Origin: Candidatus Kryptoniota bacterium
GTDB taxonomy: Bacteria > Bacteroidota > Ignavibacteria > Kryptoniales > JAKASW01
Direction of reading: 5' to 3'
Assembly: GCA_024641705.1 (NCBI GenBank)
Contig: JAHECO010000020.1
Coordinates: 1 to 63,984, forward strand
Length of the DNA: 63,984 bases
This document shows, piece after piece, positions 2,579 through 30,469 of the stretch. A program made the translations under genes and the position numbers. How positions within the stretch are numbered: the first letter of the stretch is position 1; the number at the start of each line of letters is the position of its first letter. Below the pieces are notes generated by a model. The model did no database searches and was not told the DNA's origin. It worked only from the letters and a program-made list of their open reading frames with translations.

Positions 2579-4510
2579 ATGAGATTAAAGGGATTCAATT
2601 CGGGCCTGTTCCGGAGGGGAGTTGCGAGAAGGTTTCCCCCCGGTCTGTGGGTACCATTCGTGATTCTGGCGGCAGCATTGGCGGTAACAGGTACCAATGC
2701 AGTCGCTCAGACCATCACAAGTAACGGTACCGGCGGTGGTCCTTGGGCAAGCACGAATACCTGGGTCGGTGGAGTTATACCCGATTCCTTGAACTGCAAC
2801 CAGGTAATCATAGTGAGCGGCGACTCGGTGTCAACCAACCCGATTGCGCTCGTATCGTGTCCCGATCTGGACATTCAATCCGGGGCCAAACTGACTGTGT
2901 TCGGACCTTCCACAAGCGGGGCGGGGCTAAGGGTGAAAGGCGCTTTCACAATCGAAGCGAATGCATGGTTTTTCAACTCATACAGTTCTCTGACCGGATG
3001 GCCCGCGAACGCTGCGAGCTATAGCATAGCACCCACGAGTAATTATGTACTTACAGGGACTGGGAGCAGCACTCTTGGCTCCAGCAGCTCAGACTCACTT
3101 TTCGGCAATGTTTATGTCCTGAAGAGCGGCAGTTCCTGCGATGCAAACCTGACGATTCAGGGTAACCTCACAATCAACACGGGCGCTCAGGGAAATACCT
3201 TCCGTGGTATCGATGTGGGGAGCGCAAGAAACGGCATCTTCACGCTGGTTCACCATGTCGAAGGCGATGTGCAAGTGATCTCCGGCCAATGGTCATGTGT
3301 TGACGGCGATACAGCCGGCGGCGCGATGACCTGCGTCTGGAACGTCGACGGCAATGTGACCGTCGGCGATACCGGCACTGCCTTGAACCAGGCAGCAAGG
3401 ATGGGCCCCCTGACGAGTGCGATCCAATTAGGCGACAGCAGGGTCGGCGTATTCAACATCGGCGGTAATCTCACTGTCATCAACGGGGCGCGTCTTCAGG
3501 CAGGGAGCAGCTCCGGCGCTTTTTCAACGAGTGAGATCGGTGAATTGAACCTGAAAGGCGACCTGACGCTTGACAACACTGCGCGCGTCACGGGAAACAG
3601 CATGGGTATCTACGCGATCAACTTCATCGGCAACAAGCCTCAAATGGTCTCGCTCGGCGTGTCCGTCGGATATACACCGAACTCCGGCAACGCCTACCCG
3701 ACGCTCACGGACACCATCGCCGCCGGCGCGACCGTAGTCTTTACCGGGGGAAGGCCCTGGGGCGGAGTAACCAAGACGACCACCCCGCCTGCAAACGGCT
3801 GGGGAGCGTGGGTGGTCAACGGTACACTGAAGCTCAGCCCGACTGACAGCATCATCGGTACAAAGGACTTCAACCTCAATAACGGCGCTACTCTCGGGAT
3901 AGGAAGTGCGAACGGAATAACGGCTGGCACAGCCGCCGGCGATACGGTCGGGAACGTCCTGGTCAGCGGAACGAGGACTTTCTCGACGGGAGCCAATTAT
4001 GTGTATGACGGAGATTCCCCGCAGGTAACCGGAGACGGACTGCCGACGACGGTAAACGATCTGACGATCGATAATGCTACAGGTGTCACGCTTTCACAGG
4101 CAACTACCATAGACGGTGTTCTTCATTTGAAAGCCGGTATATTCGATAACACGATCCCGTTCACCCTGGGACCGAACGGAGCAATTTCGTACGAAGGTGG
4201 AGGACTGAAAGTAACTGCGGTAAAGTCGGTTGTCTCGACTGTTCCCAAGCAGTTTTCGCTCGATCAAAATTTCCCGAACCCGTTCAACCCGACTACGGAG
4301 ATCCGTTTCGGGATCCCGGTATCAGGATTCGTGACGCTGAAAGTGTACGACGTTTTGGGAAGACAAGTCGCAACGTTGGTGAACGAAAGGAAAACACCGG
4401 GCGTGTATGAAGTCACGTTTGATGGAAGTTCTCTCGCAAGCGGACTGTATTTCTACCAAGTCCGTTCAGGGAAATACGTTTCAACGAAGCGAATGATGCT
4501 CATCAAGTAA
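2579..4510 (+). CDS. T9SS-sorted secreted beta-solenoid protein
   Basis: This 643-residue protein has no recognised catalytic domain. The ATG at 2579 is chosen over an in-frame ATG 40 codons upstream because AAAGGAGGA lies just before it and the resulting N-terminus is a signal peptide ending near AVAQ. The mature protein starts with a TNGTGGGPW...TWVGGVIPDS segment, followed by a solenoid rich in NLTI/GNLT repeats. Residues from about 555 form the T9SS sorting domain (QNFPNPFNPTTEIRF, YDVLGRQVATL). The centre is homologous to the C-terminal half of the PL9 lyase at 7790-11131 (shared GQWSCVDG, NGARLQAGSS). It may be a carbohydrate-binding or surface-display scaffold; that is inference from homology and context. 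Confidence 0.85.
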   Translation: MRLKGFNSGLFRRGVARRFPPGLWVPFVILAAALAVTGTNAVAQTITSNGTGGGPWASTNTWVGGVIPDSLNCNQVIIVSGDSVSTNPIALVSCPDLDIQSGAKLTVFGPSTSGAGLRVKGAFTIEANAWFFNSYSSLTGWPANAASYSIAPTSNYVLTGTGSSTLGSSSSDSLFGNVYVLKSGSSCDANLTIQGNLTINTGAQGNTFRGIDVGSARNGIFTLVHHVEGDVQVISGQWSCVDGDTAGGAMTCVWNVDGNVTVGDTGTALNQAARMGPLTSAIQLGDSRVGVFNIGGNLTVINGARLQAGSSSGAFSTSEIGELNLKGDLTLDNTARVTGNSMGIYAINFIGNKPQMVSLGVSVGYTPNSGNAYPTLTDTIAAGATVVFTGGRPWGGVTKTTTPPANGWGAWVVNGTLKLSPTDSIIGTKDFNLNNGATLGIGSANGITAGTAAGDTVGNVLVSGTRTFSTGANYVYDGDSPQVTGDGLPTTVNDLTIDNATGVTLSQATTIDGVLHLKAGIFDNTIPFTLGPNGAISYEGGGLKVTAVKSVVSTVPKQFSLDQNFPNPFNPTTEIRFGIPVSGFVTLKVYDVLGRQVATLVNERKTPGVYEVTFDGSSLASGLYFYQVRSGKYVSTKRMMLIK

Positions 4511-4640: not shown

Positions 4641-6296
4641 TTGTTTAAGAGCAAATCAATAACCTTCGTTCTTCTTCCAGCCGTCTTTATTCTTGGATTG
4701 AGCTTCGTTGCTTCCGGTCAGGAGACAAAAAACGAAGTCAAGAAGTACACATCAAACCTTCCGTTCAAGATGCCCGAGATCGGCTTGCCCGTGATTCCGG
4801 ACCGCTCGTTCAACATCGAGAGTTACGGCGCGGTCGGTGACGGACAAACCATGAATACCGCTGCGTTCAAGCGAGCTGTCGATGCGTGCTCCGAAGCCGG
4901 CGGGGGGACGGTCGTTGTGCCACCCGGATTGTGGCTCACAGGCCCGATCGAGCTGAAGAGCAACATCAACTTCCACGTAAGCCGCGGGGCGATCGTCCTG
5001 TTCAGCAGAAATCACTCGGATTATCCCATAATAAAATCGCCTACGAGAGGCTTTGTCGTCGCGTCACCCGTCTACGGGTTTGATCGCGAAAACGTTGCCA
5101 TAACAGGCAGCGGACTGCTCGACGGATCCGGCTTAACATGGCGGCCTGTGAAGAAAGCCAAGGTCACTTCCTCGATGTGGAAGGAGCTGACCGGATCGGG
5201 CGGCGTCGTCACCGACGACGGTACGATTTGGTGGCCCACCAAAGCGGCGGCAGATGGCGCCGGGTATTTGCGCGAACTCAAATCCAGGAAAGACAAGAAA
5301 GACCTGACCGCGGAAGACTTCATTCCGGCACGCGATTTCATGAGACCGATGCTTTTGTTGCTGAGCAAATGCAAACACGTGCTCGTCGACGGCGTGACAC
5401 TGCAAAACTCTCCGTCATTCGCGATGTACCCGGACAGGTGCGAAGATGTTGTGGTGAGGAACGTGAAGGTCAACAACGAGTACTGGGCGCAAAACGGCGA
5501 CGGCATCGACATTGCTTCATCCAGGAACGTGCTCGTCTATAAGTGCACGGTAACGGCTGGCGATGACGGGATATGTATGAAGTCTAGCGGAAAAAGGCCG
5601 GATGGCGCGGCACTGAAGAACATCGTGATCGCCGACTGCGTTGTCTACCACGCGCACGGCGGCTTCGTGATGGGGAGTAATACCGACGGCGGGATGGAAG
5701 ATATTTCCGTGAGGAACTGTGACTACATCGGTACGGATATCGGTTTGAGGTTCAAGAGCGCAAGGGGAAGGGGAGGTGTTGTCCGGGACATATACATCAG
5801 CAACATATACATGAAAGAAATTGTGCACGAAGCGATTCTCTTCGACACTTATTATGAAGAATCGAAGAGGGACGCTCAACTGCAGCCCGTCACCGACAGA
5901 ACCCCCATCTTCAAGGATTTCTACATCGACAGTATTTACTGCACCGGCGCCCGACAGGCCGTTCGCGTAGCAGGGTTGCCCGAAATGCCGATAGAGGGCA
6001 TCAGGATCTCTAATGCGGTCATATCTGCCGACAGGGGATTTACTTCCGAATTTGCCTCCGGATTCACTCTGCGGAATGTAAAGATAATTCCCAGGTCCGG
6101 CGAGGTGTACTCGCTGCGGGACACGAAGAATTTTGCGATAGAGAATGGATTTTGTCCGCCAAATACCGACGTCTTCATGAAGCTCGAAGGTAAAGGAACT
6201 GCGGACATAAGGATCGTGCATACCGATCTGTCTCCAGCAAAGACCCCGGTGCAGCTCGGACCGGATGTGGCTAAGAACGCACTTGTTCAGAACTAG
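4641..6296 (+). CDS. GH28 polygalacturonase-like glycoside hydrolase
   Basis: A 551-residue secreted glycoside hydrolase of family 28, expected to hydrolyse galacturonate linkages of pectin, probably from chain ends. It starts at TTG with GGAG six bases upstream; the N-terminus is a signal peptide ending at ASGQ. Residues 57-100 hold the SYGAVGDG and AGGGTVVVPPG opening of the right-handed beta-helix. The GH28 catalytic signatures are NGD (285-287) in place of the usual NTD, GDDG (Asp308, Asp309), HGG (His339) and RFK (370-372) in place of RIK. All catalytic acids and the His/Arg/Lys are therefore present. The altered NTD and RIK motifs suggest a specificity different from classical endopolygalacturonases, perhaps exo-acting or on substituted chains. 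A second GH28 gene follows 18 bases downstream. Confidence 0.9.
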   Translation: MFKSKSITFVLLPAVFILGLSFVASGQETKNEVKKYTSNLPFKMPEIGLPVIPDRSFNIESYGAVGDGQTMNTAAFKRAVDACSEAGGGTVVVPPGLWLTGPIELKSNINFHVSRGAIVLFSRNHSDYPIIKSPTRGFVVASPVYGFDRENVAITGSGLLDGSGLTWRPVKKAKVTSSMWKELTGSGGVVTDDGTIWWPTKAAADGAGYLRELKSRKDKKDLTAEDFIPARDFMRPMLLLLSKCKHVLVDGVTLQNSPSFAMYPDRCEDVVVRNVKVNNEYWAQNGDGIDIASSRNVLVYKCTVTAGDDGICMKSSGKRPDGAALKNIVIADCVVYHAHGGFVMGSNTDGGMEDISVRNCDYIGTDIGLRFKSARGRGGVVRDIYISNIYMKEIVHEAILFDTYYEESKRDAQLQPVTDRTPIFKDFYIDSIYCTGARQAVRVAGLPEMPIEGIRISNAVISADRGFTSEFASGFTLRNVKIIPRSGEVYSLRDTKNFAIENGFCPPNTDVFMKLEGKGTADIRIVHTDLSPAKTPVQLGPDVAKNALVQN

Positions 6297-6314
6297 CCGG
6301 CAAGGATTGAAGAA

Positions 6315-7751
6315 ATGACGTTGAACAAGAGACCTTTTTTCATTCGGCACGCTGTGACGGTCGCGGTCGCCATGCTGGTCATGAGCGTCGTGTTTCTTGC
6401 TGTTCCGCCGAACGATGTTTCGGCGGCGGGCAATCAGAAGAACAAGACTGAAAAGCTATCCGGCTGGGATCAGGTCCCGCAGATTCTCAAGCGAATTGTC
6501 CCCCCGAAGTTTCCCGACAGGAAGTTCGTGATTACGGAGTACGGCGCGGTACCGGGAGGGAAGGAGCTCTGTACGGAGGCATTCGCAAGGGCCGTCGATG
6601 CGTGCAGCAAAGCGGGAGGCGGACACGTCGTGGTGCCGAAGGGAATATTCCTCACGGGTGCCATCCACCTCAAGAGCAATGTCGACCTGCATATTTCGGA
6701 GGGAGCCGTCGTCAGGTTCAGCACCGATCCGAACGATTATCTCCCCGTTGTTCATGTCAGATGGGAAGGATCCGATGTAATGAACTACTCGCCTCTTATC
6801 TACGCCTACGGACAGGAGAACATTGCGTTAACGGGCAAGGGATTGCTCGACGGGCAGGCAGACAGCACGCACTGGTGGCCGTGGAAGAAGCTCGGCAATC
6901 AGCCGGAGAGCCGTCCGCGCCTGATGAAGCTCAACGACGAAAAGGTCCCCGTGAAGGACAGAGTGTTCGGCAAAGGTTATTATCTGCGGTCCACTTTCGT
7001 CGAGTTCTTTCGATGCACGAACGTGCTCATAAAGGATGTGAGACTCGTAAAGGCCCCCTTCTGGTTTCTCCATCCGGTGCTCTGCACGAACGTCACGATA
7101 GATGGCATCGAAACTGACAGCAACGGTCCCAACACCGACGGCTGCGATCCGGAGTCCTGCAATGATGTGCTCATACAGGACTGCATCTTCAACAACGGCG
7201 ACGATTGCATCGCGATAAAGTCGGGGAGAAACAACGACGGACGAAGAGCTCATGTACCAGCGAGCGACATAATCATAAAGAATTGCACGATGAAGGACGG
7301 CCACGGCGGTGTCTCGATAGGAAGCGAAATATCCGGCGGCTGCTCCGACATCTACGTTGAGAACTGCAAACTCAGCAGCCCCAACCTCGATCAGGCTTTG
7401 CGGATAAAATCCAATTCAAAAAGGGGCGGCGTGATCCGCGATATATACGCGCGCAACCTGGAGATAGGCCAGGTCAAAGTGGCGATCCTGAGGATCAACC
7501 TGAACTATGATCCGCCCGAAGCGGAAGGATATAAGTATTACCCGGTAGTGAAGAACATCTTCGTCCAGGATGTGAATACGAAGAAGAGCGAATACGGTCT
7601 TTTCCTGAACGGACTTCCCGAATCGAAGATAAGGAACGTGGTCGTGAAAGACTGCCGGTTCGACGGCGTTGAGAAGGGCAACGACATAAAGAATGCAACC
7701 GGGCTGAAACTGGAAAACGTATATATCAACGGGAAATTGGCCGGTGAGTGA
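6315..7751 (+). CDS. GH28 polygalacturonase
   Basis: A 478-residue GH28 enzyme with a complete catalytic set: NTD at 273-275, GDD with Asp296 and Asp297, GHG at 329-331 and RIK at 363-365. The N-terminus (to about residue 38) is a signal peptide with a long hydrophobic core, and AAGGAT lies upstream of the ATG. The ITEYGAV and AGGGHVVVPKG motifs open the parallel beta-helix. Family members hydrolyse alpha-1,4-galacturonan or remove terminal galacturonate. The gene lies between another GH28 gene and a PL9 lyase, so the three probably form one pectin-degrading operon. There is no T9SS tail, so it is likely periplasmic and acts on imported oligogalacturonides; that location is inferred. Confidence 0.92.
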   Translation: MTLNKRPFFIRHAVTVAVAMLVMSVVFLAVPPNDVSAAGNQKNKTEKLSGWDQVPQILKRIVPPKFPDRKFVITEYGAVPGGKELCTEAFARAVDACSKAGGGHVVVPKGIFLTGAIHLKSNVDLHISEGAVVRFSTDPNDYLPVVHVRWEGSDVMNYSPLIYAYGQENIALTGKGLLDGQADSTHWWPWKKLGNQPESRPRLMKLNDEKVPVKDRVFGKGYYLRSTFVEFFRCTNVLIKDVRLVKAPFWFLHPVLCTNVTIDGIETDSNGPNTDGCDPESCNDVLIQDCIFNNGDDCIAIKSGRNNDGRRAHVPASDIIIKNCTMKDGHGGVSIGSEISGGCSDIYVENCKLSSPNLDQALRIKSNSKRGGVIRDIYARNLEIGQVKVAILRINLNYDPPEAEGYKYYPVVKNIFVQDVNTKKSEYGLFLNGLPESKIRNVVVKDCRFDGVEKGNDIKNATGLKLENVYINGKLAGE

Positions 7752-22834: not shown

Positions 22835-22837
22835 CTA
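22721..22837. repeat. Three copies of a ~27-bp repeat in alternating orientation
   Basis: Copy 1 is at 22721-22747 on the plus strand; copies 2 (22759-22785) and 3 (22809-22837) are on the minus strand. All share a core of the form AGTGCTCATTCCAACTA followed by a TTAGC-like end. Copies 1 and 2 can fold into a stem of about 17 bp around a short loop. Copy 3 contains the stop codon of the beta-barrel gene at 22835. This could be a REP/BIME-like element or an unusual 3' mRNA end. Confidence 0.55.
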
Positions 22838-24118
22838 GAAGTACGTGTCGAGCTTCAGATAATATGCCTGGGGATAATACCAATACTCGGTGAAGGTCTT
22901 GCCGTGGGCGTAAAGCGCGCCCAGAGCGACTGAGGTATTGTCGCTCGCAGAATAATTCACCGTGCCGGCGAGGTAACCGCTCCCGTCGTTGAAGTTGGAT
23001 ATCGACGAGAGCATGATCGTAACGAGAGGTGTCAGCTGGTAGGAACCGCTTACCGCGAGGTAGTCTTTCGCGACGTTAAGGATTTTACCCTCGTAAAGTG
23101 CTGTGAGATCATAGCCGAACCGGTCGAGCGTTCCCTGACCGTTGTGATAATACTCGAACATGCCGTAGAGTTTGTCGTTGAACTGATAGTCCATGCCGAG
23201 TATCCAACGCACGTAGTAGCCTTCAGGTTTCGACGGATCCTCAGAGACGAGCGCTTCTCCTCTGATGCCTGCCGTCCAGACATTACCGGCGAAGTCCCCG
23301 CCCGTGATGAGCCTTCTGTCCGCAGAGCCGGCGAGCACCGCGAGGTCGTAGCCGAGGATGTTTGTCCTGAACCTGGCGGCGTAGTTGGAAGATTTGAAAT
23401 GGTACTCTGTGTCGTAGACAAACTGCAGGTCGGTAAGTTGTCCGAGATAGAATTTCATCGATGCGGCATCCGCGCCGTCTTTTTCTATCTTTCCGAAGTT
23501 CGCCGGGTTAATTGGATTGAATATGTCGGTCGGGTTCCAGACGCGTCCGGTTCCCCAGCTGATACGCTGTCTGCCCAGCACCAGTTTTCCGAACGAGAAT
23601 TCGTGGTCGAAGTACAGCCGGTCGATGTAGTGTGACAGCGTGAAATGCTTTTTAGTGAGCAAGTCCCAGTGCAGGCTGATCGCCTGTCGGAGGGGAGCGG
23701 TGGAAGTAAGTCCGAACGAAATATCCTGTGAAAAATAAAGCGCATCCATTTCGTACTCCATACCGACCTTCGTGTTGTCGCCGATATGCAGAGTCGGGCG
23801 GAGTCTCAGCCTCGTAAGGTTCGAGAATCCCGATTGCGACGTATTGGCTATCCGTGCGAAGTCAGGCTGAATGCTTTCGTAAACCGGCATCTCCATGACG
23901 TAGCCTGAGAAGTCGAGATCCGTGCCGGGAAGGATGGAAGTCTGAGCCGGGGCGGAGGAGACAAGGAAAAGCATGAGGAACAAGGAGAGGGGAGCACGGA
24001 GCAAGGAAAACGGAACACGGAACAGGGAAAACGGAGAACGGAGACCCAAGCACGGGAGAGGGAAAAAGGGAGAGTCGTCCTCTTTGTTAATTCGATATCT
24101 GTGAATGCGCTTGCCCAT
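22835..24118 (-). CDS. Outer-membrane beta-barrel protein (porin-like) of the Lol-like cassette
   Basis: A 427-residue protein. After a signal peptide ending SSAPAQ it is made of alternating amphipathic strands and ends in aromatic Phe (LDTYF), as in outer-membrane barrels. GRQRISWGTGRVWNPTD is a signature also seen in DUF1302-like and related porins. It is the last gene of the TetR/LolA/FtsX/ATPase cassette, 53 bases after the ATPase, so it may supply the outer-membrane end of that machine; this is inference. The N-terminal ~45 residues are odd: they are encoded by a low-complexity run of 8-residue PFSLFR/APLSLF units. The ATG at 24118 has no clear ribosome site, so the true start is uncertain. 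Confidence 0.75.
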   Translation of the reverse strand: MGKRIHRYRINKEDDSPFFPLPCLGLRSPFSLFRVPFSLLRAPLSLFLMLFLVSSAPAQTSILPGTDLDFSGYVMEMPVYESIQPDFARIANTSQSGFSNLTRLRLRPTLHIGDNTKVGMEYEMDALYFSQDISFGLTSTAPLRQAISLHWDLLTKKHFTLSHYIDRLYFDHEFSFGKLVLGRQRISWGTGRVWNPTDIFNPINPANFGKIEKDGADAASMKFYLGQLTDLQFVYDTEYHFKSSNYAARFRTNILGYDLAVLAGSADRRLITGGDFAGNVWTAGIRGEALVSEDPSKPEGYYVRWILGMDYQFNDKLYGMFEYYHNGQGTLDRFGYDLTALYEGKILNVAKDYLAVSGSYQLTPLVTIMLSSISNFNDGSGYLAGTVNYSASDNTSVALGALYAHGKTFTEYWYYPQAYYLKLDTYF

Positions 24119-24121
24119 CAA

Positions 24122-24167
24122 TCCAACATTCCAATATTCCGTTATTCCAACGACTCTATCCTCTAGC
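24122..24167. repeat. Low-complexity TTCCA-word repeat, copy 1
   Basis: A run of ATTCCAACATTCCAATATTCC-like words fills the gap between the ATPase stop and the beta-barrel start. A closely similar run is at 25072-25111. The unit is roughly ATTCCA(A/T)(C/T)A. Confidence 0.6.
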
Positions 24168-24171
24168 GTTC

Positions 24172-24879
24172 CTACTTGTTCACCTTGTCCGTGACTATCT
24201 GTCCGTCTTTCAATATGAGAAGCCTGTGGGCGCGTTCGATGACCTGCGGGTCGTGCGAAGAGAAGACAAACGTTATGCCGTCCTCGTGATTGAGCCTCTC
24301 CATCAGCTCGAGGAGTTTCACGGCGGTCTCGGAGTCGAGGTTTGCCGTGGGCTCGTCGGCAAGGACCAGTCTCGGCTCGTTTGAGATTGCCCGGGCAATT
24401 GCCACCCTCTGCTGCTGCCCGCCGCTCATCTCGTTCGGTCGCTTATTGGCTAGCTCGCCGATGCCAAGTTCCTCCAGGAGGGCGAGGCTTTTGCGTTTTC
24501 GCTTGCCCGCGTCGATCCCGCGGAGCATCATCGTGAATTCAACATTCTCCAGGGCGCTGAGGACGGGGTTCAGATTGTAAGCCTGAAAAACGAAGCCGAT
24601 CTTCCGAAGGCGCATGTCGGCAAGCTCGCGGCGCGTCTTGGAGGCGACGTCTTCACCGTCCAGGTATACCTTTCCTTCGGTCGGCTTGTCGAGCGTGCCC
24701 ACGATGTTCAGCAGCGTGGTCTTACCCGAGCCCGACGGGCCGGCGATGACCGAGAAATCACCGGGCGAAACGGTGAGGTTTATTCCACGGAGCGCGTCTA
24801 CGGGAACGCCGTTGTCATGGTAGACTTTCCTGACATTCTCGACGCGAACGATTTCTGTGTTGGTGTTCTTACCGTCCAT
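24172..24879 (-). CDS. ABC transporter ATP-binding protein, LolD/MacB type
   Basis: A 235-residue ATPase with Walker A GPSGSGKT (47-54), Q-loop FVFQAYNLNP, signature MSGGQQQR, Walker B LVLADEPTANLDSE and H-loop SSHD. This is the LolD/MacB/FtsE class that drives FtsX-type permeases by mechanotransmission. GAAGGAGA lies about nine bases before the ATG. It is the only ATPase in the cassette and must serve all four permeases upstream if they are active. Word-like AT-rich repeats flank it on both sides. Confidence 0.95.
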   Translation of the reverse strand: MDGKNTNTEIVRVENVRKVYHDNGVPVDALRGINLTVSPGDFSVIAGPSGSGKTTLLNIVGTLDKPTEGKVYLDGEDVASKTRRELADMRLRKIGFVFQAYNLNPVLSALENVEFTMMLRGIDAGKRKRKSLALLEELGIGELANKRPNEMSGGQQQRVAIARAISNEPRLVLADEPTANLDSETAVKLLELMERLNHEDGITFVFSSHDPQVIERAHRLLILKDGQIVTDKVNK

Positions 24880-25071
24880 AATTCTATGTCTCCTTCATAG
24901 CATTCAGCGATCAGCTTTCAGCTCGTGGTTTATCGTATGTTTGTATTTCGCCCCTGAAGGGCGAACAGCTAATCGGTAATTAACCTGCAAATATTCCGTC
25001 CCGACCCGGACGGGAAACGTTAACAACGATGAAACCTGCCTGTCCTAATCTTTTGCCCTCGAACTCCATGA

Positions 25072-25111
25072 ATCCACCATTCCAACATTCCATTATTCCA
25101 TGACTCCATCT
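25072..25111. repeat. Low-complexity TTCCA-word repeat, copy 2
   Basis: This copy shares the order ATTCCAACATTCC, then ATTATTCCA, then GACTC with copy 1. It directly abuts the stop codon of the permease gene ending at 25112. The rest of the 232-base gap to the ATPase gene holds two small palindromes (CGCCC...GGGCG and a CCCGTCC-type stem) and no gene. Confidence 0.6.
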
Positions 25112-26326
25112 TCAGCTCGCCCTTATAGCCTCAACGGGCTGAAGCTTGATAGCCCTCAGCGCAGGGTACACGGCGCCAATCACTGCGGAGAGCGGAATGA
25201 TGAGGATCGTGTTTATCAGTGAAGACGCGGCCAGTACCGGGTAGATGGTTGTTCCGACGCCCACCGACTTAAGGCTCTCCGAAAACATCGCGAGATTCCA
25301 CCCCGAATGTGAAAGAGGTATGAAGATCGCGAAGGAAACCACCAGCCCGGCGGCTGTGCCGATTACGCCGAGATAGAGAGCTTCGGTCAGTATCATCGTA
25401 AAAATCCGGCGGTTAGCCATGCCTATCGCCATGTCGACACCGAACTCGTGCGTCCGCTCCATGACTGCCATGAGCATGGTATTGACGATTCCGAATATGA
25501 GTGCGATTGCTATGATCGCGTAGAATATGTAGATGGTCTGGTCGTACAGCTGGAGCTGCATCACGAGTATGGGGAGCATCTGTTTGTAAGTCAGCACCTC
25601 GAAGCCGGCGGGGAGGTCGGATTCGATCTGTGCCGCAACCGTCTCAGTGCGCTTCGTGTCGGTTGGGTTGACCACGAATTCTGAGACTCTCCCCGGCGCA
25701 TCCAGCATCTGCTGCGCGGTCTGCATCGGAATGTAGACATGCGTCTGGTCGAAACCGGAATCGAACGTCTCAAAAAGTCCTACGATGCGGCAAGCCTCGG
25801 AACCCACGCTCCCGTCGAGGCGCGAAGCCATTATCACGACCTTATCTCCGAGCCCGACGCGCAACTTCTCCGCAGTAGCTGTGCTTATGATTATGTCGCC
25901 GGGATTGCCGGAGAGATAAGTCCCCTCGACCATATAGTTATGGACGGTAGTTACCTTTCTTTCCTTCTGAGGGAGTATGCCGACGATGGAGACCCCCGAA
26001 GAATTGTAGGCGCTGCTGACGAGGCCGAATGTCCGCAACCTTTCTGACACTTCGCAGGATGCTGTGTCCGTTGAAAGAACGCTCCGTACAGGGGCCGTGT
26101 CCGCGATAGAGTTCTTGAGCGCCGGGTCGGCCTGGTAACCTTTCTTGTGGACCTGTATGTAGCCGGCGTCTGCACCGATCTGGTTCGTAAGCATCTGCCG
26201 CATCATCCCGATCGAGACCGCATCGGTCAGAACCATCGCCACCACGCCGATCGCTATGGAAACGATCAGTATGAGTGACCTCCTCTTGTTCCGAAGTATG
26301 TTTCGCCAGGCGATCTTACCTATCAT
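25112..26326 (-). CDS. FtsX-type ABC permease A (LolC/E-like)
   Basis: A 404-residue permease with one N-terminal membrane helix after NILRNKRRSL, a large periplasmic MacB-type domain (residues about 40-260) and three C-terminal helices. This is the LolC/LolE/MacB topology, which couples ATP use to extraction or movement of lipoproteins or other envelope substrates without a classical channel. The periplasmic domain opens with GYIQVHKKGYQADPAL, a motif conserved in all four permeases here. It is a close paralogue of the permease at 27822-29054 and ends in LQPVEAIRAS. GAGG lies upstream of its ATG. Confidence 0.92.
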   Translation of the reverse strand: MIGKIAWRNILRNKRRSLILIVSIAIGVVAMVLTDAVSIGMMRQMLTNQIGADAGYIQVHKKGYQADPALKNSIADTAPVRSVLSTDTASCEVSERLRTFGLVSSAYNSSGVSIVGILPQKERKVTTVHNYMVEGTYLSGNPGDIIISTATAEKLRVGLGDKVVIMASRLDGSVGSEACRIVGLFETFDSGFDQTHVYIPMQTAQQMLDAPGRVSEFVVNPTDTKRTETVAAQIESDLPAGFEVLTYKQMLPILVMQLQLYDQTIYIFYAIIAIALIFGIVNTMLMAVMERTHEFGVDMAIGMANRRIFTMILTEALYLGVIGTAAGLVVSFAIFIPLSHSGWNLAMFSESLKSVGVGTTIYPVLAASSLINTILIIPLSAVIGAVYPALRAIKLQPVEAIRAS

Positions 26327-26507
26327 GGCTCAGCCTCAATGCGTCTCAGCGGAGATATGCAAGGAAACTCTAAGCACGAAATCCTGAATTCCAAATGATA
26401 TCCGAATCCAAAATTCAGAAATGTAAAACGCGGTTTGAATGTCCGATATGCCTTTGTGTTTTTGAACATTTGAATTTGTTTAGTATTTAGAGTTTCGAAT
26501 TTCTTTG
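26327..26507. repeat. Intergenic spacer, duplicated copy 1
   Basis: This spacer between permease genes A and B is strongly similar to 29055-29242 between A' and B'. They share an identical 43-base run (26453-26495 and 29181-29223) of AT-rich word-like sequence with TTTGAACATTTGAATTTG at its core. Confidence 0.75.
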
Positions 26508-27752
26508 TCATGTGTAGCGGATTCCCTTCAACGGCTCGAGTCTCAATACTCTCCACAGCGGGTAGACAGCTGCGACTATGGAGATACCCATGATCGTCAG
26601 CGATGAATCGACAAATATCTTGAACGACAGGGAAGAAGCGAGTATCGGTGCGAAGCCGTATTCCTGGTACAGCTTGGCGACATCGCCGCCCAGGACGATC
26701 GGATGGCGGATCCAGTACGCGTTGACAGCTGCGCCGATCCCGTTGCCGATGATGAAGCCCATGATAAGCATGAAGAAAATTTCGAGCGCAACGGCAACAA
26801 CCAGCCTTTCCTGCGACATCCCGAGCGACAGCATTACTCCATACTCTCTGAACCTCTCGGTGATCGACATGAGCACCGTGTTCAGGATCCCGAACCCGAC
26901 AACGAAGAGAAGTATTATTATGTACAGCACGCCGGAGGAGTTGTCGAGTTCTATCATCTGCTTCAGCTGGGGAAGCAGGTCCTGCCAGGGAAGTGCCACA
27001 AGTCCCATCGGCTTGAGGACCGGGTTCAGACGGTCGACGATGCTCTGCAGATCTTTGGGATTCCTGACCGACATCGCGACAGCGTTTATCCTCTCTCCCA
27101 TCCCCAGGAAGCTCTGCAGATCGGAGATTTCCATGAAACCGCCCATGCGGTCGAATTCATCGGAGCCCGTCTTGAACGTACCGACGATCCTGACAAACAT
27201 GTTTCCGAGGATTCCGTCGAAGCCCTGTGCGAGGACTACGACCGAGTCGCCCACCTGGGCGTTCAGGTTCTGAAGAAGCTTGTAACCCACGACGATCTCG
27301 GGGACTGCGCGGTTATGTCCGCCGGTGTCCGCCGATAGAAACCGTCCGGCATCGATCTTCTTCGGAAAATCGGTTATAAGATCTTCCGTCTTCGGCGAGA
27401 CGCCCATGATCATCACGCCGAGTGACTGGTCGCGGTAGCTCAACAGGGCATCGGCCTGGATTCTCGGCGAGCTGCCGTCGATCTGAGGTATGTCTTTCAC
27501 CGCGTCGGCTATCTGTCGGTTCAGGTCGAAACTCTTCTGCAGGGTGGGATTTTTGTTATAGCCGATCTTCTGAATCTGAAGATATCCGGTCGACACGCGT
27601 ACGGCCGTCTTTATCGTCTCCGCATACGTCCCGTACTGCATGCCGCGCTGGATTATGGAAAGCGTTATCGCGAAGATCACCGCGGACATCGCGATGAGCG
27701 ACCGCCTCCAGTTCCGCCACAGACTCCGCCATGCCAATCGTATTAGAAGCAT
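26508..27752 (-). CDS. FtsX-type ABC permease B (LolC/E-like)
   Basis: A 414-residue permease of the same topology as its neighbours, starting MLLIRLAWRSLWRNWRRS and ending LEPLKGIRYT. The periplasmic domain begins with GYLQIQKIGYNKNPTL. It is the paralogue of the permease at 29243-30469 and more distantly related to the A-type permeases, so A and B probably form a heterodimer like LolC-LolE. The ribosome site before the ATG is weak (AAGAGAA), and its upstream spacer (27753-27821) contains an AT-rich palindromic run. Confidence 0.92.
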   Translation of the reverse strand: MLLIRLAWRSLWRNWRRSLIAMSAVIFAITLSIIQRGMQYGTYAETIKTAVRVSTGYLQIQKIGYNKNPTLQKSFDLNRQIADAVKDIPQIDGSSPRIQADALLSYRDQSLGVMIMGVSPKTEDLITDFPKKIDAGRFLSADTGGHNRAVPEIVVGYKLLQNLNAQVGDSVVVLAQGFDGILGNMFVRIVGTFKTGSDEFDRMGGFMEISDLQSFLGMGERINAVAMSVRNPKDLQSIVDRLNPVLKPMGLVALPWQDLLPQLKQMIELDNSSGVLYIIILLFVVGFGILNTVLMSITERFREYGVMLSLGMSQERLVVAVALEIFFMLIMGFIIGNGIGAAVNAYWIRHPIVLGGDVAKLYQEYGFAPILASSLSFKIFVDSSLTIMGISIVAAVYPLWRVLRLEPLKGIRYT

Positions 27753-27821
27753 TTTCTCTTAATTCAAAATTTAAAATTAATACCTGTCCTGACGACAGGT
27801 CAGGAATTAAAAATTCTCAAT
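27753..27821. repeat. Spacer with AT-rich run and CCTGTC palindrome
   Basis: AATTCAAAATTTAAAATTAA is followed by a palindromic CCTGTC...GACAGG element and a second AATTAAAAATTC run. The spacer marks the junction between the two duplicated permease pairs and contains no gene. Confidence 0.55.
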
Positions 27822-29054
27822 TCATGTCGCCCTGATCGCCTCGACCGGCTGGAGCCTTACGGCCTTCAACGCCGGGTAGACCGCTCCGAGAAGAGTGACG
27901 ACAGGAATGACCAGAACCGTCGGGACCACGTATGAAGTTTCGAGGACAGGGTAGATGATGCTCCCGACCCCAAGTGACTTAAGGCTTGCCGAGAACATCG
28001 ACAGGTCCCACCCGGTACGCGACAGCGAAAGGGATGCTCCATAGGATCCGGCCAGCCCGATCGCCGTTCCGATGACGGCGAGATAAAGCGCCTCGATCAT
28101 CACCATAGTGAATATCTTCCTGTTCGACATGCCGATGGCCATCGAGACGCCAAACTCGTGCGTCCTCTCCATGACGGACATAAGCATGGTGTCTATGATT
28201 CCGAAAATGAGCGCGACGGCGATGATGCCGGCGATGAGGTACAGGGCCTGCCTGTACAACACGAGCTGCGCGACGAGGAGCGGAAGCATCTGTTCGTAGC
28301 TCAGGACCTCGTATTCTCCTGCAGCGCCGGGCAATCCGGCAATATCATCCCGGACGCGTGATTCCACCGCTGCCTGATCGCGCGTGTTTTTCGGATTGAC
28401 CACGAATTCCGATACGAGCCCGTCGGCGTTCAGCATCTGATCCGCCGTCTGGATCGGGATGTAAACGTGCGACTGGTCGAAGCCGGAATTGAACGTCTCG
28501 AATATCCCTGAAACCCGGCAGGCTTCCGAGCCGACGCTCCCGTCGATCTGCGAGGCCATGATGACCACCTTGTCGCCGAGTCCGACTTTGAGCTTGTCCG
28601 CCATCGAAGTGCTGAGAAGGATTTGTCCCGGTTCACCGGAAAGGTAAGAACCCTTCGTGATGTATTGCGATATCGTGGTTATCTTCTTTTCCGCCGAAGG
28701 AACTATGCCGACAATCGAGACCCCATACGAATTGTAGGGGCTGCTGACGAGGCCGAAGACTCTCAGCCGCTCCGAGTAATTCAGGATTGCTCTCTCCTTC
28801 GTAAGAATCTCGCGCACCGGTCCCGGATTTGTCATCGCATTTTCAAGCGTGGGATCGGACTGGTAGCCTTTCTTGTGAATTTGGATATAGCCTGCGTCCG
28901 CGCTGATCTGGTTAGACAGCATTTGATGAAGCATCCCGGTCGCGAAGCCTTCCGTCAGGACCAGCGCGAGCACGCCGACCACGATCGACGTGATCAGTAT
29001 GAGCGACCTTCTCTTGTTTCTCAATATGTTGCGCCAGGCTATCCTGCCAATCAT
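27822..29054 (-). CDS. FtsX-type ABC permease A' (LolC/E-like)
   Basis: A 410-residue paralogue of the permease at 25112-26326: same NILRNKRRSLILI start, GYIQIHKKGYQSDPTL motif at the head of the periplasmic domain, and LQPVEAIRAT end. Topology is one N-terminal helix, a periplasmic domain and three C-terminal helices. A and A' are clearly diverged, so the duplication is not recent and both copies were probably kept for function. It would pair with the B' permease upstream. Confidence 0.92.
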   Translation of the reverse strand: MIGRIAWRNILRNKRRSLILITSIVVGVLALVLTEGFATGMLHQMLSNQISADAGYIQIHKKGYQSDPTLENAMTNPGPVREILTKERAILNYSERLRVFGLVSSPYNSYGVSIVGIVPSAEKKITTISQYITKGSYLSGEPGQILLSTSMADKLKVGLGDKVVIMASQIDGSVGSEACRVSGIFETFNSGFDQSHVYIPIQTADQMLNADGLVSEFVVNPKNTRDQAAVESRVRDDIAGLPGAAGEYEVLSYEQMLPLLVAQLVLYRQALYLIAGIIAVALIFGIIDTMLMSVMERTHEFGVSMAIGMSNRKIFTMVMIEALYLAVIGTAIGLAGSYGASLSLSRTGWDLSMFSASLKSLGVGSIIYPVLETSYVVPTVLVIPVVTLLGAVYPALKAVRLQPVEAIRAT

Positions 29055-29242
29055 GATTCAGCTTCAATCTGTTTCAGCGGAGATGTGCGGAAAAACTCTA
29101 AATACGAAATGCTAAGTCCTAAACAATAACGAAATCCAAAATTCAGAAATCTCAAATGCGGTTCAGATGTCCGATATGCGTTTGTGTTTTTGAACATTTG
29201 AATTTGTTTAGTATTTAGAGTTTAGAATTTCGAATTTCTTTG
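29055..29242. repeat. Intergenic spacer, duplicated copy 2
   Basis: The partner of 26327-26507, in the same position relative to A' and B'. It has a slightly longer word-like run (extra TTTAGAATTTCG) before the shared end at the permease stop codon. Confidence 0.75.
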
Positions 29243-30469
29243 TCATGTGTAGCGGATTCCTTTAAGCGGTTCCAGCCTTGACACGCGCCACAGGGGATAA
29301 ACGGAAGCAGCCAGGGAGATTGCGAAGACTATAGTCCCCGCGGTAATGAATATTCCGGGCGATAGGGAAGACGGTACGATCGGCTGGAAGCCCCACTCGT
29401 GCACGTATTGGCCGACGTCGCCTCCGAGAACGATCGGATGTCTGACGAAGTGATAGTTGATCGCGGCTCCGGCTGCGTTGCCGATTGCAAAACCGATAAT
29501 GACCATGAAGAGCATCTCTATCGCGGTCGTGACGGCTAGCTTGAAATTGGACATCCCGATGGAAAGGAGGACGCCGAACTCCCTGAAACGCTCGGTAACG
29601 GACATCAGCAGGGCATTCAGGATCCCGAAACCGACTACGGCGAATAGGATGCTCAGAAACAGGATATGAGCCGCGTGACTGAATCCCATCGTTTGCGTGA
29701 GCTGAGGGAGAAGCTGCTGCCACGGGACAGCTACGAGTCCTCCATGTCTAAGCAGCGGATCGAGTTTCATGACGATCTTGTCCACGTCGGCCGGGTCCTT
29801 CACGGAGAGTGCAAGGGCGTTCACATTGTCTCCCATGGCGAGGAAATTCTGCAGGACCGGCACGCTCATGAACGCTCCCGTGCGGTCGAATTCGTCCGAG
29901 CCGGTCTTGAACGTCCCGACGATCCTGACGAACATGTTTCCCAGGACGCCGTCGAACCCCTGTGCGAGCACGACGACCGAATCTCCGACTCTCGCGCCGA
30001 GGTTCCTGAGGAGTTTGTAGCCGACGACGACGTCAGGAGTGCTGTCGTTGTCGAGGAAACGGCCTTCGTCGATCTTCTCGGGAAAGTCGGTGACCAGGTC
30101 TTCTGTCCCCGGCTCGACGCCCGTAATGAGCGCCCCGAGTGAATGGTTCCGGCAACTGAGCAGACCGCCTGCCTGTATCCTGGGAGAGCTCCCCTCGATC
30201 ATCGGGTCGGATTTGATCGCAGACTCGATTTCGGGCGTAATCGCGAAACTCTTCTGGAGCGTCGGGTTATCGTTGTAGCCGACCTTCTGGATTTGCAGGT
30301 AGCCCGTGGAGGACCTGACCGCCGTCCTCAGAGACAGTGCAAAAGTCCCGTCGTCGAAACCAAGCCTGACGATCGCGAACATTACCGCGAATGCGATTGC
30401 GGTGATCACGAGGATCGAACGTCTCCGATTCCGCCAGAGGCTCCGCCACGCGATGCGTACCAGGAGCAT
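29243..30469 (-). CDS. FtsX-type ABC permease B' (LolC/E-like)
   Basis: A 408-residue paralogue of the permease at 26508-27752 (MLLVRIAWRSLWRNRRRS start, GYLQIQKVGYNDNPTL motif, LEPLKGIRYT end). It starts five bases after the stop of the LolA-like gene, and GGAGAGATAGGAC at the end of that gene serves as its ribosome site, so the two are translationally linked. It is the first permease of the operon. Confidence 0.92.
   Translation of the reverse strand: MLLVRIAWRSLWRNRRRSILVITAIAFAVMFAIVRLGFDDGTFALSLRTAVRSSTGYLQIQKVGYNDNPTLQKSFAITPEIESAIKSDPMIEGSSPRIQAGGLLSCRNHSLGALITGVEPGTEDLVTDFPEKIDEGRFLDNDSTPDVVVGYKLLRNLGARVGDSVVVLAQGFDGVLGNMFVRIVGTFKTGSDEFDRTGAFMSVPVLQNFLAMGDNVNALALSVKDPADVDKIVMKLDPLLRHGGLVAVPWQQLLPQLTQTMGFSHAAHILFLSILFAVVGFGILNALLMSVTERFREFGVLLSIGMSNFKLAVTTAIEMLFMVIIGFAIGNAAGAAINYHFVRHPIVLGGDVGQYVHEWGFQPIVPSSLSPGIFITAGTIVFAISLAASVYPLWRVSRLEPLKGIRYT

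Follow-up and report, generated by a model that had tools for sequence, protein, structure and literature searches.

Organization of the permease locus

The window, that is the whole analysed stretch of 63,984 nts, carries an operon-like block of four FtsX/MacB_PCD permease genes, transcribed from the minus strand in the order B2-S2-A2-S0-B1-S1-A1 (Table 1). Downstream of it lies an ABC ATPase gene; upstream, it is flanked by genes encoding a TetR regulator and a LolA-like protein. The block consists of two tandem pairs, A1/B1 and A2/B2. In what follows, G000 is the source genome and other G numbers designate genomes of the same genus.

Table 1. Genes, spacers and repeat arms of the permease block
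Feature	Coordinates	Strand	Basis
ABC ATPase (ABC_tran), likely permease partner	24172..24879	-	Pfam
A1: FtsX/MacB_PCD permease	25112..26326	-	ORF, Pfam FtsX + MacB_PCD
S1 spacer: same repeat as S2, minus one heptad; probable conversion recipient	26327..26507	-	sequence alignment
S1 downstream arm, limits approximate	26365..26423	-	
S1 upstream arm, 43-nt run inside	26453..26507	-	sequence alignment
B1: FtsX/MacB_PCD permease; last 17-18 nt in conversion tract	26508..27752	-	ORF, Pfam
S0 spacer (A2 to B1) with a different dispersed palindrome, GACCTGTCGTCAGGACAGGT	27753..27821	-	
A2: FtsX/MacB_PCD permease	27822..29054	-	ORF, Pfam
S2 spacer: one full palindromic heptad-array repeat; probable conversion donor	29055..29242	-	
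S2 downstream arm ATTGTTTAGGACTTAGCATTTCGTATTTAGAGTTT, limits approximate	29094..29152	-	
S2 upstream arm GAAATTC GAAATTC TAAACTC TAAATAC TAAACAAATTCAAATGTTCAAAA..., 43-nt run inside; kept in the S2 orthologues of three further species	29181..29242	-	
B2: FtsX/MacB_PCD permease, the upstream member of copy 2	29243..30469	-	ORF, Pfam FtsX + MacB_PCD

Spacers are better kept than the genes around them

A preliminary description of this DNA had reported diverged tandem FtsX pairs whose A-B spacers are alike and share a run of 43 bases; coordinates and alignment agree with it. S1 (181 nts) and S2 (188 nts) are identical at 151 of 181 positions (83%), and the sole gap in their alignment measures 7 nts, exactly one heptad of the repeat described below. 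The 43-nt run occupies positions 26453–26495 in S1 and 29181–29223 in S2, with 0 such runs expected in shuffled sequence. Between copies, the proteins are 65% (A1/A2) and 62% (B1/B2) identical. At fourfold sites where both copies encode one amino acid, identity is 41% (A) and 37% (B), the value expected at saturation being ~31%, and dS amounts to 1.5–1.8 by NG86 and exceeds 1.2 by two methods. The spacers are thus far better kept than synonymous sites (83% versus 37–41%), as had been supposed.

Each B-A spacer contains a dispersed palindromic repeat

Each B-A spacer is a member of a dispersed palindromic repeat family. The repeat is ~150 nts long, with two inverted heptad arms (CTAAANN / NNTTTAG) round a variable centre, and its copies share a common plan: the upstream CTAAANN arm, an inner stretch TAAACAAATTCAAATGTTCAAAA, the variable centre and the downstream NNTTTAG arm. 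According to column counts, the units are degenerate CTAAANN and not exact direct TAACTGA repeats. Searching the G000 genome with S2 gave 22 matches at ~17 sites, with 67–92% identity over 26–157 nts. The 43-base core is not a high-copy exact repeat. The core pattern gave 22 matches in G000 versus 0 with a reversed-pattern control.

The elements fill the stop-to-start gap between genes, their heptad units forming an intergenic array beside start codons. Most of them lie between co-directional genes (28/33, 24/35 and 32/36), raw counts that carry no claim of enrichment over the gene pairs of those genomes. Two further regularities were considered. Element polarity agreed with transcription in 11 of 13 cases when an initial sample was oriented by a single motif; formal orientation then gave 9:3 for the deltaproteobacterium without a consistent bias in the remaining groups, and no polarity is claimed. 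As for an all-frame stop array (TAA every 7 nts), the frequent G variant (CGAAA) abolishes the stop.

Probable gene conversion between the tandem pairs

The tandem duplication was also found in other species of the genus. A2 is closer to A2 of other species (73–80% identical) than to A1 within G000 (65%), which places the duplication before these species; it is older than the genus. Because it is that old, unconstrained sequence inherited from it is expected to be scrambled. We compared seven species at the permease locus, six of which carry both copies. Within-genome S1/S2 identity reaches 83% in G000 and 91% in G002, versus 44–69% in G001, G003, G007 and G012. Only in the first two are S1 and S2 closer to each other than to their orthologues, and a stretch of 90–100% binned identity centred on the spacer is confined to the same two genomes. 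The best tract runs from 17 nts inside B to 63 nts inside A in G000 (262 nts, 84%), and from spacer position 19 to 62 nts inside A in G002 (128 nts, 97%); both scores were reached by 0 of 2000 column permutations.

The tract spans functional boundaries: the coding end, the repeat and the flank. At the coding end, B1 and B2 of G000 both finish with GGA ATC CGC TAC ACA TGA, and the Arg codon written CGC here is AGG or AGA in 10 of 11 other B genes (CGG in G001 B2). On the opposite side, the A-proximal 38 nts are identical at 27/38 positions within G000 and 38/38 within G002, versus 12–13/38 between orthologues of the two species; this segment is outside the repeat and has no further copy among the G000 loci examined.

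Gene conversion, one of the explanations put forward for the spacer likeness in the preliminary description, is well supported by these comparisons: the two spacers were probably homogenised after the genus diversified, independently in two lineages. A point against this reading is that the signal has partly decayed in G000: the right half of S1/S2 is only ~76% identical, and conversion would have had to occur twice there, or once long ago and once lately. As donor, S2 is the better candidate, since the arm it carries agrees with that of S2 orthologues in other species, whereas the S1 orthologues are different. An S2 to S1 conversion would have homogenised the spacer, the last codons of B and the A-proximal flank, and S1 would have lost exactly one heptad afterwards. 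As in concerted evolution of other tandem paralogues, within-genome identity exceeds between-species identity and the tract crosses gene and spacer; unlike the usual case, the event is visible here since the tract is centred on the spacer and the genes have diverged.

Evidence for sequence constraint on the arms

In G003, G010 and G012, S2 measures only 42 nts: the upstream arm is kept and the opposite arm is missing. Between G000 and these three genomes, the 28-nt S2 arm is identical at 26–27 of 28 positions (93–96%), with a fourfold identity of 0.39–0.41. The four variable dinucleotides of the arm agree across species save single substitutions, and, judged by word frequencies, the four words would all agree by chance with a probability of ~0.002. 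For an orthologous element elsewhere (L004/L121/L116), identity is 73–85% in the arms and 39–61% in the centre. Since a lone arm was kept where synonymous sites are near saturation, the arms appear to be constrained as sequence, a single arm being enough. These comparisons support a constraint independent of pairing, although part of the arm conservation may stem from homogenisation with copies elsewhere in the genome.

Pairing between the arms

Under selection for pairing, the two arms of one element should complement each other better than arms taken from different elements. We observed the reverse: complementarity at variable positions was 0.366 for own arms versus 0.454 for swapped arms (P<0.0002). 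The deficit had the same direction in 5/5 strata, with P<0.05 in 4/5, and stayed when elements were oriented by positions outside the test (322 versus 377, sd 12). Constant positions showed complementarity at expectation, and permutation at variable and constant positions detected no compensatory base changes between arms. The arms are thus firmly without covariation. Neighbouring heptads in one arm are also identical less often than expected, to which imperfect orientation may contribute. Active avoidance of pairing between arms is proposed only tentatively, because imperfect orientation of polar elements can yield part of the deficit.

On the transcribed strand, G.U-type and A.C-type mismatches were equal in number (180 versus 182), giving no RNA-strand signal, and sense and antisense strands of the elements folded equally well. 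The elements folded better than shuffles, with a median z of −2.8 to −5.1 by group; S1 and S2 alone gave z −1.8.

Taxonomic range of the repeat

Within the genus, repeat matches were found in 8 of 13 genomes, with 0 to 15 per genome. Among genomes sampled evenly across the phylum, only those of the same class gave matches, with 0 in ~220 genomes of other classes. A stricter core matched five Patescibacteria assemblies and one deltaproteobacterial assembly, and these genomes contained 7 to 58 loose matches versus 1 to 8 with the reversed control. The scan of genome contigs used one exact pattern and the taxonomic range is accordingly a lower bound. In two patescibacterial cases the copy is located within a 23S rRNA gene, on L087 (element 3929–4033, LSU match 2832–4458) and L088. 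On the IMG/VR contig L100, which carries tail, neck and head-closure genes, four half-elements stand directly behind stop codons; L095, which comes from a different sample, represents this phage too (99.5%).

Some of these loci contain other insertions or arrays. The 23S rRNA gene of L088 spans 4.9 kb and also holds a Group I intron (6112–6408). At the tail and neck gene junctions of L100 (2392–2773, 5698–5802, 6947–7300), the half-elements are followed by another heptad array (ACGAGCG), and other junctions of this contig carry further word arrays (CCAGANN, GAATCGT). Two deltaproteobacterial copies, on L189 and L194, are interrupted by GGTTCGACAAGTTCACCATCCTGAGCAAAGTCGAAGGAC; this insert occurs in either orientation and seems to be another repeat nested within the heptad element.

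Against Rfam, in strict and permissive searches, the elements had no match at the gathering score and gave weak matches only, mostly to miRNA-precursor families. A literature search by sequence words of the repeat and by topic retrieved no paper printing it, the nearest being a study of TAACTGA repeats (PMC4679880). The family is apparently undescribed.

Comparison with known repeats

TAACTGA heptamer direct repeats occur in Beggiatoaceae, Cyanobacteria and some Bacteroidetes, and protein binding has been proposed for them (MacGregor 2015, PMC4679880). Like these, the heptad repeat forms intergenic arrays at gene junctions and is patchy over distant lineages, with no evident transfer mechanism. 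TAACTGA repeats are, however, exact direct copies of one word, whereas the units here are degenerate and arranged in two inverted arms round a variable centre. REP/REPIN sequences with RAYT (PMC3116915) are likewise dispersed short palindromes between genes; the heptad repeat is longer, built of heptads and shows no sign of Y1_Tnp dependence. ERIC/RU and further intergenic repeat units of enterobacteria, among them the 127 bp RU-1 (PMC2759123, PMC2229807), are also short imperfect palindromes scattered in intergenic regions. The arms of the heptad repeat, unlike those of ERIC/RU, do not keep pairing. To our knowledge, ERIC/RU are confined to one bacterial group, are more uniform in sequence and lack heptad periodicity.

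Proposed function and alternative explanations

Following the proposal made for TAACTGA heptamers (PMC4679880), we predict, with moderate to low confidence, that the heptads serve as an array of sites bound by a sequence-specific protein at gene junctions, and not as a hairpin processing signal. The putative protein would act on DNA or on A/U-rich intercistronic RNA. The explanation as a whole, which combines conversion of the spacers, a dispersed palindromic family, constrained arms and the predicted protein-site array, we regard as probable.

For the likeness of S1 and S2, the preliminary description had also suggested that one element was inserted separately at both sites, so that the spacers would simply be two copies of a family. 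The spacer does hold an element, and this element is dispersed, with a copy number that varies across the genus. Two insertions are nevertheless unneeded and leave the matching flanks unexplained: the likeness continues beyond the element into the last codons of B and the A-proximal 38 nts, which are absent from other copies. Moreover, S1 and S2 agree at 48 of 57 positions of a common central sequence, the next-best G000 copy being 71% identical to the query over its length, and orthologues carry the arm at the corresponding position. Independent insertion is thus improbable. Selection on the whole spacer as a conserved RNA element, a hairpin or RNase III-type processing site kept in both copies, is about equally unlikely. 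Folding better than shuffles would fit it, as would the position of most elements between co-directional genes and of two inside 23S rRNA genes. However, own-arm complementarity falls below the swapped-arm level, G.U and A.C mismatches are equally frequent, sense and antisense fold alike, and z for S1 and S2 is only −1.8; the arm of G003, G010 and G012 has no partner, and Rfam gave no match. With neither compensatory pairing nor RNA-strand bias, a selected hairpin or processing site is argued against and that part of the earlier suggestion finds no support. Selection in the broader sense is supported for the arms by their orthologous conservation, and is secondary as a cause of the S1/S2 likeness, for which gene conversion is preferred.

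The repeats might instead be non-autonomous mobile elements of MITE or REP/RAYT type devoid of host function. This is possible but doubtful. The patchy distribution across phyla speaks for it, as do the copies in a phage and within 23S rRNA genes. Inverted arms are present; no clean empty site was seen, the relatives being too diverged for nucleotide-level junctions. On the other hand, Y1_Tnp genes are uncorrelated with element number across the 13 genomes (G008 has 5 genes and 0 matches, G003 0 genes and 2 matches), a fixed terminal motif or target duplication was not established, and a number of insertions are shared as orthologues by different species, their arms being conserved. Dispersal by a mobile system, perhaps together with phages, is partly supported and is a rival compatible with the binding array. 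More speculatively still, the elements might represent an undescribed cross-phylum class of intercistronic degenerate-heptad repeats, in which each inverted arm is conserved as sequence but two positions per heptad are held short of full complementarity; a palindrome avoiding perfect pairing would then be a paired protein-site array spread by phages.

The pair S1/S2 illustrates clearly how gene conversion can centre on a spacer. The larger find is the repeat, a word-built element between genes in at least three very different bacterial groups and a phage, absent from Rfam and constrained in its arms without arm-to-arm covariation. Such arrays may make up intergenic sequence of many uncultured genomes, and to learn which factors bind or disperse them would account for a considerable portion of those genomes that lacks annotation.

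Other repeats at the locus

Octad arrays ATTCCANN stand on either side of the ABC ATPase gene (24107–24157 and 25058–25108). This octad has 31 pattern matches in G000 and 0 in the reversed control; within the genus, 9 of 13 genomes have matches. The palindrome of the A2-B1 spacer (27782–27801) has 22 matches in G000, whereas elsewhere in the genus only two genomes have it, with a single match apiece; this suggests that it expanded recently in G000. Finally, a heptad array (GGANNAN) at 23949–24039 is read as part of the N-terminus of the ORF 22835–24121, where it yields the 7-residue periodicity FSLFRVPFSLLRAPLSLFLM; the called TTG start of this ORF is doubtful.
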